A DNA stretch of 64,000 nucleotides from Acetothermia bacterium 64_32 (lineage in GTDB: Bacteria > Bipolaricaulota > Bipolaricaulia > Bipolaricaulales > Bipolaricaulaceae), in assembly GCA_001508155.1 (NCBI GenBank), contig LGFI01000001.1:1-64000 (forward strand), in the 5' to 3' direction. The translations under genes were made by a program, and so were the position numbers. Shown here piece by piece: positions 53,999 through 59,486 of this stretch (its first letter is position 1; every line of letters starts with the position of its first letter). The notes under the pieces are model-generated. The model made no database searches. It was not told the DNA's origin and saw only the letters and a list, made by a program, of their open reading frames with translations.

Positions 53999-54074
53999 TG
54001 GTGGAGATGAGCGGATTCGAACCGCCGACCTCCGCGTTGCGAACGCGGCGCTCTCCCAACTGAGCTACATCCCC
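53999..54074 (-). tRNA. tRNA-Ala (CGC)
   Basis: 76 bases with encoded CCA. Acceptor GGGGATG pairs with CATCTCC; loop TTCGCAA, anticodon CGC (reads GCG). First gene of the array at the 3' side of the Ala-rich gene. Confidence 0.9.
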
Positions 54075-54080
54075 ACGAAG

Positions 54081-54150
54081 GCGGAGAAGTTACAAGTCGC
54101 AAGTCCCAGGTTTTGCGCTTGGAACTTGAAAACTTGCGACTTGGGACTTC
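54081..54150. repeat. Degenerate AAGTCGCAAGTCCC-type repeat between tRNA genes
   Basis: Runs of AAGTCGCAAGTCCC on one side and AACTTGCGACTTGGG on the other; the two halves are imperfect inverted copies and could fold into a stem. A related unit occurs at 59308-59398. Confidence 0.5.
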
Positions 54151-54154
54151 CCTG

Positions 54155-54228
54155 TGGCGGAGCAGGGAGTCGAACCCTGAACCTCGCGGTTATGGGCCGC
54201 GCGCTCTCACCGGTTGAGCTACTCCGCC
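54155..54228 (-). tRNA. tRNA-Met (CAT), elongator type, with C33
   Basis: 74 bases, no encoded CCA. Acceptor GGCGGAG pairs with CTCCGCC; stem CGCGG/CCGCG around the loop CCCATAA with anticodon CAT. Position 33, almost always T, is C here. The acceptor end is fully paired, so it is not the initiator. tRNA-Ile (lysidine type) is an alternative. Confidence 0.8.
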
Positions 54229-54235
54229 TCATCCG

Positions 54236-54263
54236 CCCCACGAAACCTTGAGGTTCCGTGGGG
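54236..54263. repeat. Hairpin in tRNA spacer
   Basis: CCCCACGAAACC, loop TTGA, GGTTCCGTGGGG (one mismatch). It lies between the Met and fMet genes and resembles the hairpin at 54359. Confidence 0.6.
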
Positions 54264-54276
54264 ACCCCTACCCAAC

Positions 54277-54353
54277 TGGTTGCGGGGGCTGGACTCGAAC
54301 CAGCAACCTCCGGGTTATGAGCCCGGCGAGCTTCCTAATTGCTCCACCCCGCT
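54277..54353 (-). tRNA. Initiator tRNA-fMet (CAT)
   Basis: 77 bases with encoded CCA. The body (CGGGGTGGAGCA, anticodon stem CCGGG/CCCGG with three G-C pairs, loop CTCATAA) equals bacterial initiators. Position 1 is A opposite A72, unpaired as expected; E. coli has C1. Confidence 0.92.
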
Positions 54354-54358
54354 ACTCA

Positions 54359-54386
54359 CCCCACGAAATCTAACGATTTCGCGGGG
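54359..54386. repeat. Hairpin in tRNA spacer
   Basis: CCCCACGAAATC, loop TAAC, GATTTCGCGGGG, followed by GACCCC exactly as the hairpin at 54236 is. Confidence 0.6.
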
Positions 54387-54399
54387 ACCCCTCAAGTTC

Positions 54400-54486
54400 T
54401 GCCGGGGGCGGGGGTCGAACCCGCACGAGCCTGCAGGGCTCAGAGGATTTTAAGTCCCCTGCGTCTACCAATTCCGCCACCCCGGC
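54400..54486 (-). tRNA. tRNA-Leu (TAA)
   Basis: 87 bases, type II with a long variable arm, CCA not encoded. Acceptor GCCGGGG pairs with CCCCGGC; loop CTTAAAA, anticodon TAA. Confidence 0.9.
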
Positions 54487-54495
54487 ACCCCAACG

Positions 54496-54568
54496 AGCGG
54501 GAAACGGGATTCGAACCCGCGACCTCCACCTCGGCAAGGTGGCGCTCTACCAGCTGAGCTATTCCCGC
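54496..54568 (-). tRNA. tRNA-Gly (GCC)
   Basis: 73 bases. Acceptor GCGGGAA pairs with TTCCCGC; loop TTGCCGA, anticodon GCC; discriminator T as usual for Gly; CCA not encoded. Confidence 0.92.
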
Positions 54569-54610
54569 TTGCCGGCCTAGATTATAGGGGCCCAGCCCCG
54601 GGCTTCAAGC

Positions 54611-54695
54611 TGGTGCGAAGGGCGGGATTCGAACCCGCACGCCTTACGGCACTGGCTCCTAAGGCCAGCGCGTCTGCCAATTCCGCCACCTTCGC
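54611..54695 (-). tRNA. tRNA-Leu (TAG)
   Basis: 85 bases, type II, encoded CCA. Acceptor GCGAAGG pairs with CCTTCGC; loop CTTAGGA, anticodon TAG. Confidence 0.92.
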
Positions 54696-54710: not shown

Positions 54711-54745
54711 TAGCAAAGAGAAAGGGGGCGGCTAGGGCCGCCCCC
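54711..54745 (-). terminator. Terminator of the Ala-rich protein gene
   Basis: GGGGGCGGC (54724-54732), loop TAGG, GCCGCCCCC (54737-54745), followed on the minus strand by TTTCTCTTTG. Confidence 0.85.
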
Positions 54746-54765: not shown

Positions 54766-57700
54766 TCAACCGACGATGTCCTGGTATCTTGCCACCACCC
54801 GCGTGTTGGCCCTAAGGGTGAGCCTCAGCGAGTACGTGTTCGTCCTCCGATCGAAGGTGCCTGGGTACTCCACCGGCTCGTCGGCGTCGCCTATCCAGAC
54901 CTGGAATCCCTGGAAGGCCACACCATAGGGGCCGGCAACGTTGCTCCGTGCCGGCACGGTTATGACTATCTCCGTCCCGGACGCCCTCTGGACGGTGAAC
55001 GGAGTGTAGCGCTGTCTGGCCTCGTCGGAGAGCTTTACCGGGATCTCGATATCCTCATACCCCGGCGTCACCATGATTATGTGATGGGCACGTACCTCCA
55101 AGTTGACCTGAATCGGGTAAACCCTTATCGGTGGGATGATGCCGATGGTGATGCAGGGTTCCAGTTCGACCTGTTGTTGGGCCGTCTTCCTCTGCCCCCG
55201 GGCGTCTTGGACCTGTACGAAGGCAGTGATAGTACCACCCGTCCTCAGGTCCACTTGGAAGGTCATGGATCCGGAGTTGGGGAAGTGGTCGATGCGCGAC
55301 TCTACATGGCCGTCCGGATAGCGTATCCCGACGGGCCCCACCACCAGAGGGGAGGTGCCGCCTGAGGCCTGCCAGTAAACGGTCACCGCGTGGGAGTACT
55401 CGTCCCCGCACACCTTGTCCACCGCGGTGCGGATGGTCACCGAGAGGGGCTTCACTTGAGCCTCCTCCCCGCCCACCCTTATCCGGACCAAGAGGCGGAT
55501 GACCTCGCACCCCCCTTTGTCGTAGAGGGAGAACACCACCTCATAGGTGGCGGGCTGCGGTGGCATGTAGCCCTGCAGGAGGCCGGTGCCGTTTGCCAGG
55601 TTAAGCCCGAACTCCACCCCGCTGGGAAGGCCACTTGAGGAGATCTTCGCCTCCTGGGCCCCAGCGGACCGGATCCGGGAGATCAGGGAAGAGGGCATCT
55701 GCCTCTGGGTAAGGAAGTGCAGGGTACCCCCCTTCACCTCCCCGAAGTCCCACTCAAGGCTCTGCGGCTCCGGGCATTCGGGCTCGGTGGGCCCGGTCGG
55801 CTGCCCCACCTGGATCAGCACGTAGAGCTGCCCCACCGGGCACTGTCGCCCATCAAACAAGGTGAAAAGGAGCTCGTACGTGGCGTACTCGGAAGGCACC
55901 ATGCCCGCGAGGCGCCCCTGGCCGTAGTCCAAAAGGAGCTCAAAGGAGAGCCCCGCCGGGAGGTTGGAGGAGACGAGGGTCGAGGACACAACGCCCAGCT
56001 CCTCGATGGCGGCCCTCAGCCCCTGGGGCATGGGTCGGGTGATGCTGACCCGCATCCCCGGGGAAACCTGCCCGAAGTCCCACTTGAAGCTGCGGGGTTC
56101 AGGGCATTCCGGGGTGGGCACCACCGTCTCCGGCACGTACTCCTCGCAGGTGGGCACAAGACACTCGGGATCGATGAACGCCTGCACGGAGGTCTGGATG
56201 TCGGGCACCACCTCCACCGAGGTGGAGGCGGTGGCTGCCGATTGCGCCGCCGCGTTGGCCATGGCCTGGGCCTGGGCAAGCGCAGATGCGCACGCCTCGG
56301 CCAGGGCGGTGGCGCGGGCCTCCGCCTCCGCGGACGCCATGGCCTGGGCATGGGCATGGGCCGCGGCCACCGCGCACGCCCGGGCCGAGGCATAAGCAGA
56401 GGCGTAGGCCTGGGCGAGCGCCTGAGCCGCGGCGAATGCCCGGGCCTGGGCGTGGGCTTCGGCCCCGGCCGCGGCATACGCCGCAGCGGCGGCATCGGCG
56501 AAGGCCCCGGCCGCCGCCTCCACCGCCACGGCCACCTGGGCCTCGGCTTGCGCCCGGGCCAGAGCCGCCGCCTGGGCGGCTGCCAGGGCCTCGGCCTGGG
56601 CCTCGGCCAGGGCGCCGGCCTGGGCCTCGGCGCTCGCCCCGGCTGCCACCGCGGCCTCGGCGCAAGCGCGGGCGGCTGCCTCGGCCTGGGCGCTCGCCTC
56701 CGCGATCGCTTGGGCCCCGACCGCTACCTGGGCCTCAGCCCGGGCCCGGGCGGCCGCACACGCCCGCGCCGCAGCTTCGGCCCGGGCGGCCGCTTCGGCC
56801 ACCGCCTCCAGGCCCGAGGCGGCCTCAGCCTGAGCGGCTGCAAGGGCCTGGGCCGCCGCCTGGGCCTCCGCTTGGGCCTGGGCCGCCGCCTGGGCCGCCG
56901 CCTGGGCGTGGGCGATGGCCTGAGCCGCCCCCATGGCCTCGGCGGCGGCATAAGCTCGGGCATAGGCTTCCCCGGTGCCGGCAGCCGAGGCCTGCGCCTG
57001 GGCTTGGGCCTCCACCTGGGCCGCAGCGGCGGCACACGCCTGGGCCTCCGCTTGGGCCTGGGCCGCCGCCTCGGCCGCCACCTGGGCGTGGGCCTCCACC
57101 TCGGCTACCGCCCGGGCTACCGCACCCGCCAGGGAACCGGCCGCGCTCTGGGCCTGGGCATAGGCTTCGGCCGCCGCCTGGGCGCTGGCCTCTGCCTGGG
57201 CCGCCGCCTCGGCCAGGGCAGTGGCCATGGCTTGAGCCTCGGCCTGTGCCCTGGCACATGCCTGGGCCGCCGCTTGGGCCTGAGCGCTGGCCCGGGCTTG
57301 AGCCTGAGCTATGGCCTGGGAGTAAGCCTTGGCATCGGCACTGGCCCTGGCACACGCCTGGGCGATGGCAGTGGCCTGAGCCTGGGCGTGGGCCTGGGCA
57401 CTGCCGATCGCCTGGGCCGCCGCCTCGGCCGCCGCCTTCGCCTCCGCATACGCCTGGGCACACGCCCCAGCCGCCGCCTGGGCGCTGGCCCGGGCCTGGG
57501 CTATGGCCTGGGCCGCCGCTTGAGCCTCGGCGATCGCCTCGGCGTGGGCCTGGGCGATCGCCTGGGCGGCCGCGTGGGCCTGGGCATAGGCCGCTGCCGC
57601 CGCTTGGGCCGCCGCCTCCGCCCGCGCCTGCGCGGATGCTGCCGCCTCCGCCCGGGCACTGGCGCTAGCCTCGGCCAGGGCGGTTGCCTGAGCGGCAGCC

Positions 57701-58635
57701 TCTGCCGCTGCGCTGGCCTTGGCCACCGCGGTGGCGATGGCCTCCACCACCCCGCCCACCTGCGTCACCACCGTGCCACAGGGGACGGCCGTCTGCACCG
57801 TCTGCTTCACCAGCTCCGCCTCGTCCTGGGCACGGGAGAAAGCCTGAGCCGAGGAGCTTGCCTGAGCCTCCGCGTACGCCCGGGCACTCGCGACCGCCTG
57901 AGCGTAGCTTGAGGCCTGGGCCGCTGCCTCCGCGGCCGCTTGGGCGGCCGCCTTGGCCGTGGCCACTGCCCCGGCCGCGGCACTGGCCTGGGCCTCGGCC
58001 TCGGCCTGGGCCTGGGCAATGGCTTCGGCAACCGCCTGGGCATAGGCCTCCACCTCAGCCTGGGCAGCGGCGCACGCCTGGGCCGCCGCCTGGGCCTCGG
58101 CCTGGGCCTGGGCGATGGCGCTCAGTACCTCCTCTACCTTGGCCTGGGCATCGGCTTGGGCGGAAGCACAGGCGTTGGCCTGGGCCTGGGCGTCGGCCTG
58201 GGCCGAGGCACAGGCCTCGGCAAACGCCTGGGCCGCTGCCTCCGCCCGGGCAGCCGCCTGAGAACAGGCTTGGGCGTATGCCCGGGCATCCGCCACCGCC
58301 TCAGCACAGGCCCGTGCCAGGGCCTCGGCCCGGGCTTGGGCGGTCGCCTGCGCCTCGGCTATCGCCTGGGCATAGGCCTGGGCGTCCGCGTTCGCCTCCT
58401 CGGCCCGGGACAGGAGCCCACTTACATCTAGCCCGGCGAGCAGCTCCTGGGCCTGTTGAAGGGCGGCCTGGGCCTGAGCCTGGGCCCAGGCGGCCGCCTG
58501 GGCGGCCGCCTGGGCCATGGCCACGATGTCCGGCAGGAACGGCTCGTGCTCTTGCTGGGATAACGCCGGCACGAAAAGCCCCACCGCCAGCACTACCCCC
58601 AACAGCGCTGCCTTCAATCTCCTCGCCACACGCAC
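54766..58635 (-). CDS. Giant secreted Ala-X repeat protein with beta-domain C-terminus
   Basis: 1289 residues, unrecognised. The start is GTG 58635 with AAAGGAGGAGG just upstream. Signal peptide about 1-27 ([12 protein letters not shown]). Residues about 38-805 are an almost unbroken alternation of Ala with another residue, mostly Gln, Glu, Ser, Arg, Tyr, Val; Pro is almost absent and about a dozen Cys fall at the non-Ala positions. A break near 265-300 ([15 protein letters not shown]) splits it. A Cys-rich linker is followed by two tandem copies (from about 842 and 952) of a roughly 110-residue beta unit with ECPEP, WDFG and LPxG[LV] motifs, then two more beta-type domains. It lies between two same-strand tRNA arrays. 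Surface fibre or sheath is a guess. Confidence 0.8.
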
Positions 58636-58671
58636 CTCCTCCTTTGGTCACCCCCGTAGGGGAATTGCACC

Positions 58672-58784: not shown

Positions 58785-58862
58785 TGGCGCGCCCGGGAGG
58801 ACTCGAACCCCCAACCCTCGGCTCCGAAGGCCGATGCTCTGTTCCGATTGAGCTACGGGCGC
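58785..58862 (-). tRNA. tRNA-Arg (TCG)
   Basis: 78 bases, encoded CCA. Acceptor GCGCCCG pairs with CGGGCGC; loop CTTCGGA, anticodon TCG; discriminator G. Confidence 0.92.
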
Positions 58863-58865
58863 TAG

Positions 58866-58942
58866 CTCGTGATCCGTTATCCGTGAACCGTGACCAGTGA
58901 TTTCACAAACAACGGATTACCCATCACGGGTAACGGTTCACG
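58866..58942. repeat. Degenerate CCGTGATCCGTAA-type repeat between tRNA genes
   Basis: Units such as CCGTTATCCGTGA and, in inverse orientation, TCACGGGTAACGG; the two ends can pair into a long imperfect stem. Related to 59153-59226 and to the GTGACG repeats at 11272 and 12727. Confidence 0.55.
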
Positions 58943-58946
58943 GAGT

Positions 58947-59022
58947 TGGGAGGAGCGACGGGACTCGAACCCGCAACCCCTGCGGCCACAGCGCAGTGCT
59001 CTGCCTTTGAGCTACGCTCCCC
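58947..59022 (-). tRNA. tRNA-His (GTG)
   Basis: 76 bases. The extra G at -1 faces C73, as in bacterial tRNA-His; G1 faces T72 as a wobble pair; loop CTGTGGC, anticodon GTG; CCA encoded. Confidence 0.9.
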
Positions 59023-59028
59023 ACGCAT

Positions 59029-59054
59029 CCCGCAAGACCCTGCGATCTTGCGGG
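59029..59054. repeat. Hairpin in tRNA spacer
   Basis: Perfect stem CCCGCAAGA (59029-59037) and TCTTGCGGG (59046-59054) with an 8-base loop, between the His and Arg genes. Confidence 0.6.
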
Positions 59055-59067
59055 AACCCTTGCAAGC

Positions 59068-59145
59068 TGGCGCGCCCGGGAGGACTCGAACCCCCGACCT
59101 GCGGCTTAGAAGGCCGCTGCTCTGGTCCCACTGAGCTACGGGCGC
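59068..59145 (-). tRNA. tRNA-Arg (TCT)
   Basis: 78 bases, encoded CCA. Acceptor GCGCCCG pairs with CGGGCGC; loop CTTCTAA, anticodon TCT. Acceptor and T-arm equal those of the tRNA-Arg(TCG) 280 bases away, suggesting duplication. Confidence 0.92.
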
Positions 59146-59152
59146 CAAGTCC

Positions 59153-59226
59153 GTAATCCGTGACCGGTGATCCGTAACCTGAAACCGCTGATCCCGATCA
59201 CGGCTTACGGATCACGGTTCACGGAC
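59153..59226. repeat. Degenerate CCGTGATCCGTAA-type repeat between tRNA genes
   Basis: GTCCGTAATCCGTGACC at one end and GGATCACGGTTCACGGAC at the other form an imperfect inverted pair around a variable centre. Confidence 0.55.
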
Positions 59227-59228
59227 AC

Positions 59229-59302
59229 TGGAGCGGGTAGCGGGAATCGAACCCGCGTCACTGGCTTGGAAGGCCAGCGCTCTACCATTGAGCTATACCC
59301 GC
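59229..59302 (-). tRNA. tRNA-Gly (TCC)
   Basis: 74 bases, encoded CCA. Acceptor GCGGGTA pairs with TACCCGC; loop CTTCCAA, anticodon TCC; discriminator T. Confidence 0.92.
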
Positions 59303-59307
59303 CAAAC

Positions 59308-59398
59308 ATCTAGTCACAAGTCCCAAAGTTGAAAGTCTCAAGAGTCGCAAAGTCGAAAGTCTCAGGTTCGACCCGCGACTTTGGACTTTCGACTTGCC
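59308..59398. repeat. Degenerate AAGTCGAAAGTCTC-type repeat between tRNA genes
   Basis: Several units of AAGTC plus CGAAAG or CCAAAG and their inverse near 59380-59395. Same style as 54081-54150. Confidence 0.5.
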
Positions 59399-59408
59399 AA
59401 CTGCCTTC

Positions 59409-59486
59409 TGGTCGGAGAGGGCGGATTCGAACCGCCGACCTCAGCGTCCCGAACGCTGCGCGCTGACCAGGCTGCGCTACTCTCCG
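59409..59486 (-). tRNA. tRNA-Pro (CGG)
   Basis: 78 bases, encoded CCA. Acceptor CGGAGAG pairs with CTCTCCG; loop TTCGGGA, anticodon CGG. Confidence 0.92.

Follow-up and report, generated by a model that had tools for sequence, protein, structure and literature searches.

A Bipolaricaulota protein with alanine at nearly every second residue of a long amphipathic helical region

What kind of protein places an alanine at nearly every second residue for some 770 residues, and what enforces such a rule? The question is raised by a gene of Acetothermia bacterium 64_32, located in the window analysed here, which comprises the first 64,000 nucleotides of contig 1 (LGFI01000001.1) of a 1.8 Mb genome that is 92% complete. 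The gene occupies positions 54766–58635 of the minus strand, as indicated by the reading frame, its translation and full-length homologues, and encodes 1289 amino acids when read from the first GTG codon. The plus strand of the same interval is interrupted by stop codons.

Alternation and its maintenance at the protein level

A single register runs through residues ~38–804 (767 residues), in which 334 Ala share one parity and 59 have the opposite one, so that ~87% of every second residue is Ala. The alternation is broken only near residues 60–80 and 270–297. The intervening positions (X) vary and carry all 14 Cys, and the region contains one Pro. These counts bear out a first-pass annotation made from the letters of the window, which had described Ala at nearly every second residue between about 38 and 805, a near absence of Pro, and Cys always at non-Ala positions. 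Defined by translation, periodicity and AlphaFold2 (AF2) prediction, the Ala-X helical region spans residues 34–820 (56176–58536, minus strand).

The same register is kept in 24 long homologues, all from Bipolaricaulota, well past anything that chance would give, which provides the conservation among relatives that the annotation had proposed as a check. An origin by frameshift of another gene is ruled out by the frame common to the full-length homologues. The alternating region is 767–779 residues long in 19 of the 24 and 863 residues long in the other five. The 484-residue C-terminal part was matched in 40 of 100 Bipolaricaulota genomes, mostly as a single copy, and a stricter threshold applied to the N-terminal profile likewise gave 40 of 100 genomes, mostly single copy; the figure is perhaps partly due to incomplete assemblies. 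A broad genome scan, for which peptides of a single sequence served as queries, yielded only two close Bipolaricaulota and does not establish absence outside the phylum; no relatives were found in plasmids, phages or IMG/VR contigs. Two variants bear on the region itself. The 624-residue open frame L045 (G014:C17) contains only the initial ~125 residues of the Ala-X region, followed by the C-terminal domains, and is either a natural deletion or an assembly collapse of the repetitive region. The 1636-residue open frame L059 (G002:C225) is the second copy within genome G002; its Ala-X region is again 767 residues long, and it has several extra immunoglobulin (Ig)-like domains.

No described family or solved structure matches the alternating region, in agreement with the annotation, and it does not belong to a known fibre family. 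Pfam holds no family for it, the only match being an Ig-like domain in the C-terminal part. The NCBIfam search yielded only a compositional match to NF033849 (serine-rich protein; 17.3 bits against a cut-off of 650). The PDB sequence search returned no family member, although the Gln-Ala tract of TCERG1 turned up.

Among relatives of increasing distance, identity at the X parity drops from 0.65 to 0.36, whereas identity at the Ala parity remains 0.85–0.91 at all distances. Shared Ala codons differ at the third base in 48–71% of cases, comparable to the four-fold sites of the C-terminal part (53–62%), and the accepted replacements at Ala sites are mostly Val, Ser, Gly and Thr. The Ala sites are under purifying selection, with synonymous sites near saturation. 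Because the third bases of the kept Ala codons diverge like four-fold sites, the period-2 rule is enforced on the protein and not on the DNA.

The coding DNA nonetheless contains many overlapping imperfect tandem repeats of 6, 12, 18, 24 and 30 bp, as in an expanded hexamer (GCNNNN) that is translated incidentally. However, this explanation is confronted with the divergence of third bases between paired codons that still encode Ala, with exceptions at Ala sites that follow the helix face (see below), and with a length that is nearly fixed across the phylum. An expanded hexamer is therefore extremely improbable, and a DNA repeat artefact is ruled out by the synonymous-site test. TCERG1 is a nuclear protein with a hexamer-coded, length-polymorphic (QA)38 tract (PMC9445028), for which such incidental translation is debated. 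The hexamer-coded Ala alternation is alike in the two proteins, but the region studied here has ~384 units rather than 38, a near-fixed length and varied X residues.

A hidden 32-residue helical repeat

The hydrophobic X residues have a spectral maximum at 9/32 or its alias 7/32, with a power of 5.8 compared with a median of 0.8; the former corresponds to a period of 32/9 = 3.556 residues. The X-residue autocorrelation is positive at lags 14, 18, 32, 46, 60 and 64 and negative at lags 12, 16, 30, 34, 44 and 52 (each in at least one sequence or family profile), signs that match cos(2π × 9/32 × lag). The two aliases are separated by odd lags alone. The odd-lag correlation of the hydrophobic exceptions at Ala sites is r = +0.85 for 9/32 and −0.85 for 7/32, and thus the alias of period 4.57 is excluded.

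A helical wheel was built with leave-one-out phasing and eight angular bins. Cys accounts for 22.6% of the X sites on one stripe and for 0% at 90–180 degrees. The stripe is formed by Cys and aliphatic residues and is flanked by aromatic residues, with Gln, Glu, Lys and Arg contributing only 1–4%. The exceptions at Ala sites track the same helix face, with Val on the stripe and Ser or Asp opposite. The period and the wheel are those of an amphipathic α-helix with a hidden repeat of 32 residues, or nine turns.

The annotation had offered either a β-sheet or a long helix for the A-X sequence. A silk-like or solenoid β structure, with Ala facing inward and sheets stacked on the Ala face, draws on the strict period of two over 770 residues, which is natural for strands and not required by an α-helix, and on the constraint of Ala sites on every face. 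Against it stand the 3.556-residue period of the X residues, confirmed by the odd lags, the amphipathic wheel, the Gln/Glu/Ala-rich composition, the all-helical AF2 prediction and insertions of 32 residues that equal nine helical turns. Such a β structure is very unlikely, and for a silk-fibroin-like alternating β-sheet protein in particular the alternation is present but the helical periodicity and the AF2 helices rule it out. The sheet alternative thus falls away and the helix stands, with the modification that six folded-back helices are predicted.

Honeybee silk is a heterotetrameric coiled coil of ~210-residue Ala-rich amphipathic helices, in which Ala permits tight packing (PMC12284834). 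A long amphipathic α-helix rich in Ala is common to both proteins. As described, however, honeybee silk places Ala at the core heptad positions a, d, e and g, a concentration characteristic of the honeybee-silk/Alacoil type that is not found here, where Ala occupies every second residue at any angle. Moreover, the silk repeat is 7/2 rather than 32/9, and prediction has the helices of the present protein folding back inside a single chain.

Predicted hairpins and their packing

AF2 was run on an alignment of the 24 sequences, in which the numbering equals the residue number minus 25. The helical region was predicted, with a mean predicted local distance difference test score (pLDDT) of 77 and a predicted template modelling score (pTM) of 0.39, as six long helices of ~75–135 residues (all coordinates on the minus strand). 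A shorter helix (residues 34–68, alignment 9–43) precedes helix 1, predicted at residues 72–148 (alignment 47–123; 58192–58422). Predicted helix 2 (residues 164–279, alignment 139–254; 57799–58146) and helix 3 (residues 294–409, alignment 269–384; 57409–57756) are separated by the conserved turn t2 (residues 280–293; 57757–57798), a predicted β-hairpin turn. Predicted helix 4 (residues 420–552, alignment 395–527; 56980–57378) leads through the conserved turn t4 (residues 553–555, within AAGTGEAY; 56971–56979) to helix 5 (residues 556–691, alignment 531–666; 56563–56970), and helix 6 is predicted at residues 700–820 (alignment 675–795; 56176–56538). Both conserved turns are seen in the homologue alignment and in the prediction. 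The pLDDT exceeds 90 around the predicted base and decreases to 34–39 at turns t1, t3 and t5.

Four conserved anchors delimit three segments of 252, 272 and 248 residues, corresponding to the three predicted hairpins. Some members have 274 residues in segment 2, others have 4–8 additional residues in segment 1, and one has 253 in segment 3. In the long class the segments measure 284, 304 and 280 residues, exactly 32 more in each, and the extra residues of the 863-residue regions align as three insertions of 32. An insertion of 32 residues adds nine turns and is even in number, and so disturbs neither helix face nor Ala parity. Equal lengthening of all segments would be required of three hairpins that pack side by side. 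In G057, a distant member from another family, three shorter near-equal segments of ~223, 220 and 207 residues are found, and the Ala sites change parity nowhere but at the two inter-hairpin turns.

An architecture without hairpins, in which the region forms one very long helix or a parallel homo-oligomeric coiled coil (a fibre or trimeric stalk) of ~100 nm, would agree with the continuous amphipathic signal, and with turns t1, t3 and t5, for which no turn sequence is conserved and the AF2 confidence is low. It does not account for the conserved non-helical motifs at t2 and t4, nor for three near-equal segments in the distant G057 protein. In a linear fibre any single insertion would do, and the addition of 32 residues to every segment would not be expected. 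We consider this architecture unlikely.

The reading that we favour, as moderately probable, is an exported six-helix structural rod of Bipolaricaulota, consisting of a three-hairpin bundle with four β domains. The Ala-X region would fold into six long amphipathic α-helices running up and down as three hairpins, giving a rigid antiparallel bundle perhaps ~15–20 nm in length. Its base would be formed by the N-terminus, turns t2 and t4 and the C-terminal exit, with the tip at the opposite end; the four β domains would be positioned at the base, probably for binding or anchoring. Length changes in steps of 32 residues would preserve helix face and Ala parity. Strict parity would also cause the i,i+4 ridges to alternate between all-Ala and all-X, so that helices and neighbouring rods could interlock on all sides.

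Residues 1–26 (58558–58635, minus strand) resemble a signal peptide without a lipobox, as judged from the sequence. A simple motif search found no lipobox in 23 of the 24 homologues, the remaining one (L038) containing a single VVAC. SLH domains were searched for in the organism's own genome, 92% complete, with no match, while the Thermotoga maritima control was positive. The genome encodes an Omp85 protein, which implies an outer membrane. Together these features suggest a diderm in which the protein is exported at least as far as the periplasm; the annotation's term "secreted" holds as "exported", with the choice between the periplasm and the outside not settled. Long bipolar prosthecae are described for a Bipolaricaulota member in digester biomass, whose envelope has been proposed to be Thermotoga-like and in which pili, flagella and adhesins were not recognised (PMC6092417). 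The likeliest role of the protein, held with moderate confidence, is that of a structural spacer, stalk or coat protein of the envelope, possibly on or under the outer membrane.

Long exported helical proteins of other bacteria show partial resemblance. The Thermotoga Omp-alpha type is a periplasmic helical rod with an SLH anchor, found in a diderm whose outer membrane is sheath-like. The long helical spacer is alike, but here the repeat is different, the genome yielded no SLH match and no C-terminal membrane anchor was noticed in the protein. Streptomyces UmbC (PDB accession number 8w20) is exported and resembles a lollipop, with a coiled-coil stalk ~300 Å long (PMC11062931). No counterpart of its umbrella ring of ALF repeats is seen here, and UmbC is not known to show A-X parity. 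The PDB fold search with the helical model, itself of low pTM, gave weak matches only; the Foldseek match to 8w20 has an E value of 0.03, a probability of 0.44 and a template modelling (TM) score of 0.12. Streptococcal antigen I/II, built of A-repeats and P-repeats, has Pro-rich repeats entwined with its Ala-rich helix and an LPXTG sorting signal; the translation of the present gene contains neither a Pro-rich repeat region nor an LPXTG.

Several observations weigh against the hairpin rod. The pTM of 0.39 and the low-confidence tip turns mean that helix packing is not modelled reliably, and Ala-rich sequence is readily predicted as helix. The long class is a single clade (support 100/99), and because all three 32-residue additions are on that one branch, they represent one coordinated episode and not many. 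The best-scoring place for the insertion is at or close to the predicted tip in segments 2 and 3, as judged against the sister sequence, whereas in segment 1 it falls near the first arm's base. With neither a lipobox nor an SLH match, the rod has no identified anchor, and codon usage (rank 30 of 47) gives no sign of high expression. Finally, the Ala frequency at the Ala parity is 0.77–0.88 in all eight angular bins, including those opposite the hydrophobic stripe. The bundle leaves Ala on that predicted solvent face unexplained, as an ordinary amphipathic bundle needs no such rule.

The same face motivates an alternative that is compatible with the hairpin rod, namely that the rods are subunits of a lattice (a sheath, S-layer-like coat or stalk fibre, possibly of polar prosthecae) in which every face is a contact. 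Bulky residues are excluded from Ala sites even on the predicted solvent face, where bulky polar residues occupy ~3% of Ala sites as opposed to ~58% of X sites, and the prosthecate digester member without recognised pili, flagella or adhesins would suit such an assembly. However, the codon usage does not point to an abundant protein, and a copy is detectable in only 40 of the 100 phylum genomes. We regard the lattice as possible but rather doubtful. More tentative still is the proposal that the parity code is a new helix-packing principle, in which all-Ala grooves and all-X ridges interlock rods into a lattice with its height fixed in steps of 32 residues, or nine turns, possibly as wall material of a sheath or prosthecae.

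Long α-helical rods normally follow 7- or 11-residue rules, and we know of no ordinary coiled coil that obeys a period-2 rule. Here the period-2 rule and the 3.556-residue helical period are kept together over 770 residues, at near-fixed length and with one 32-residue quantum, across a deep phylum. The protein is a natural test case for packing constraints encoded by small residues, and may offer a template for designed helical materials of very high density. Bipolaricaulota have almost no cultured members, and the protein is a candidate for their unknown structural envelope proteins.

C-terminal domains, gene boundaries and neighbours

AF2 predicts four β domains in the C-terminal part (mean pLDDT 87.7), with a pTM of 0.32 that does not fix their arrangement. 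Ig-like domains 1 (residues 848–943; 55807–56094, minus strand) and 2 (residues 958–1055; 55471–55764, minus strand) are a tandem duplication with 45% sequence identity (E value 3e-27). They confirm the tandem pair of the annotation, beyond which lie two further domains, domain 3 (residues 1065–1158; 55162–55443, minus strand) and the C-terminal domain 4 (residues 1176–1286; 54778–55110, minus strand). The isolated C-terminal part matches He_PIG (Pfam PF05345) in domain 2 with 26 bits against a gathering cut-off of 24, and the whole protein scores 22.5, below the cut-off. This likeness covers an accessory C-terminal domain only and says nothing of the Ala-X region. A PDB fold search with the C-terminal model returned generic Ig-like surface and S-layer proteins at TM scores of at most ~0.23, giving no specific assignment. 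By motif, the number of Ig-like domains among relatives varies from one to at least four. In the G057 genome further 1204-residue open reading frames (ORFs) with matches to the C-terminal domains are found close to the Ala-X gene (L069; G057:C10, ~113–119 kb of the contig), which suggests tandem paralogues.

A strong Shine-Dalgarno sequence, AAAGGAGG (58637–58644, minus strand), is located 7 nt 5′ of a GTG at 58629, two codons downstream of the first GTG. This codon is better placed relative to the Shine-Dalgarno, and translation is therefore likelier to start there, giving a putative protein of 1287 residues. An intrinsic-terminator-like stem-loop (54724–54745, minus strand) directly follows the stop codon; one such element was found against 1.4 expected by chance, so that it is weak alone. 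Two long antisense ORFs on the plus strand (55717–57912 and 56286–57668) face the Ala-X region and encode Gly-Leu alternation and Pro/Arg-rich sequence. They are by-products of GCN codons in GC-rich DNA and not genes.

Clusters of tRNA genes flank the gene on both sides (53999–54695 and 58785–59486 of the window). The downstream run Leu-Gly-Leu-Met-Met-Ala also follows the homologue in L034, L050, L053, L054, L062 and L063, and in L035 only its first tRNA falls within the contig. Conservation of this run 3′ of the gene across two families fits vertical inheritance. Most clusters in the neighbourhood comparison are spurious antisense ORFs in GC-rich DNA; the real constants are the downstream tRNA cluster and, in one family, an upstream Cys-rich protein. 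The latter is a small secreted protein of ~210 residues, encoded on the same strand ~600–700 bases upstream of the homologue in L053, L055, L058, L062 and L063, and is a possible partner subunit. Upstream of the homologue in L036, a UvrB-like ORF (677-residue family) apparently carries an intein-like insertion directly after GATGTGKS.
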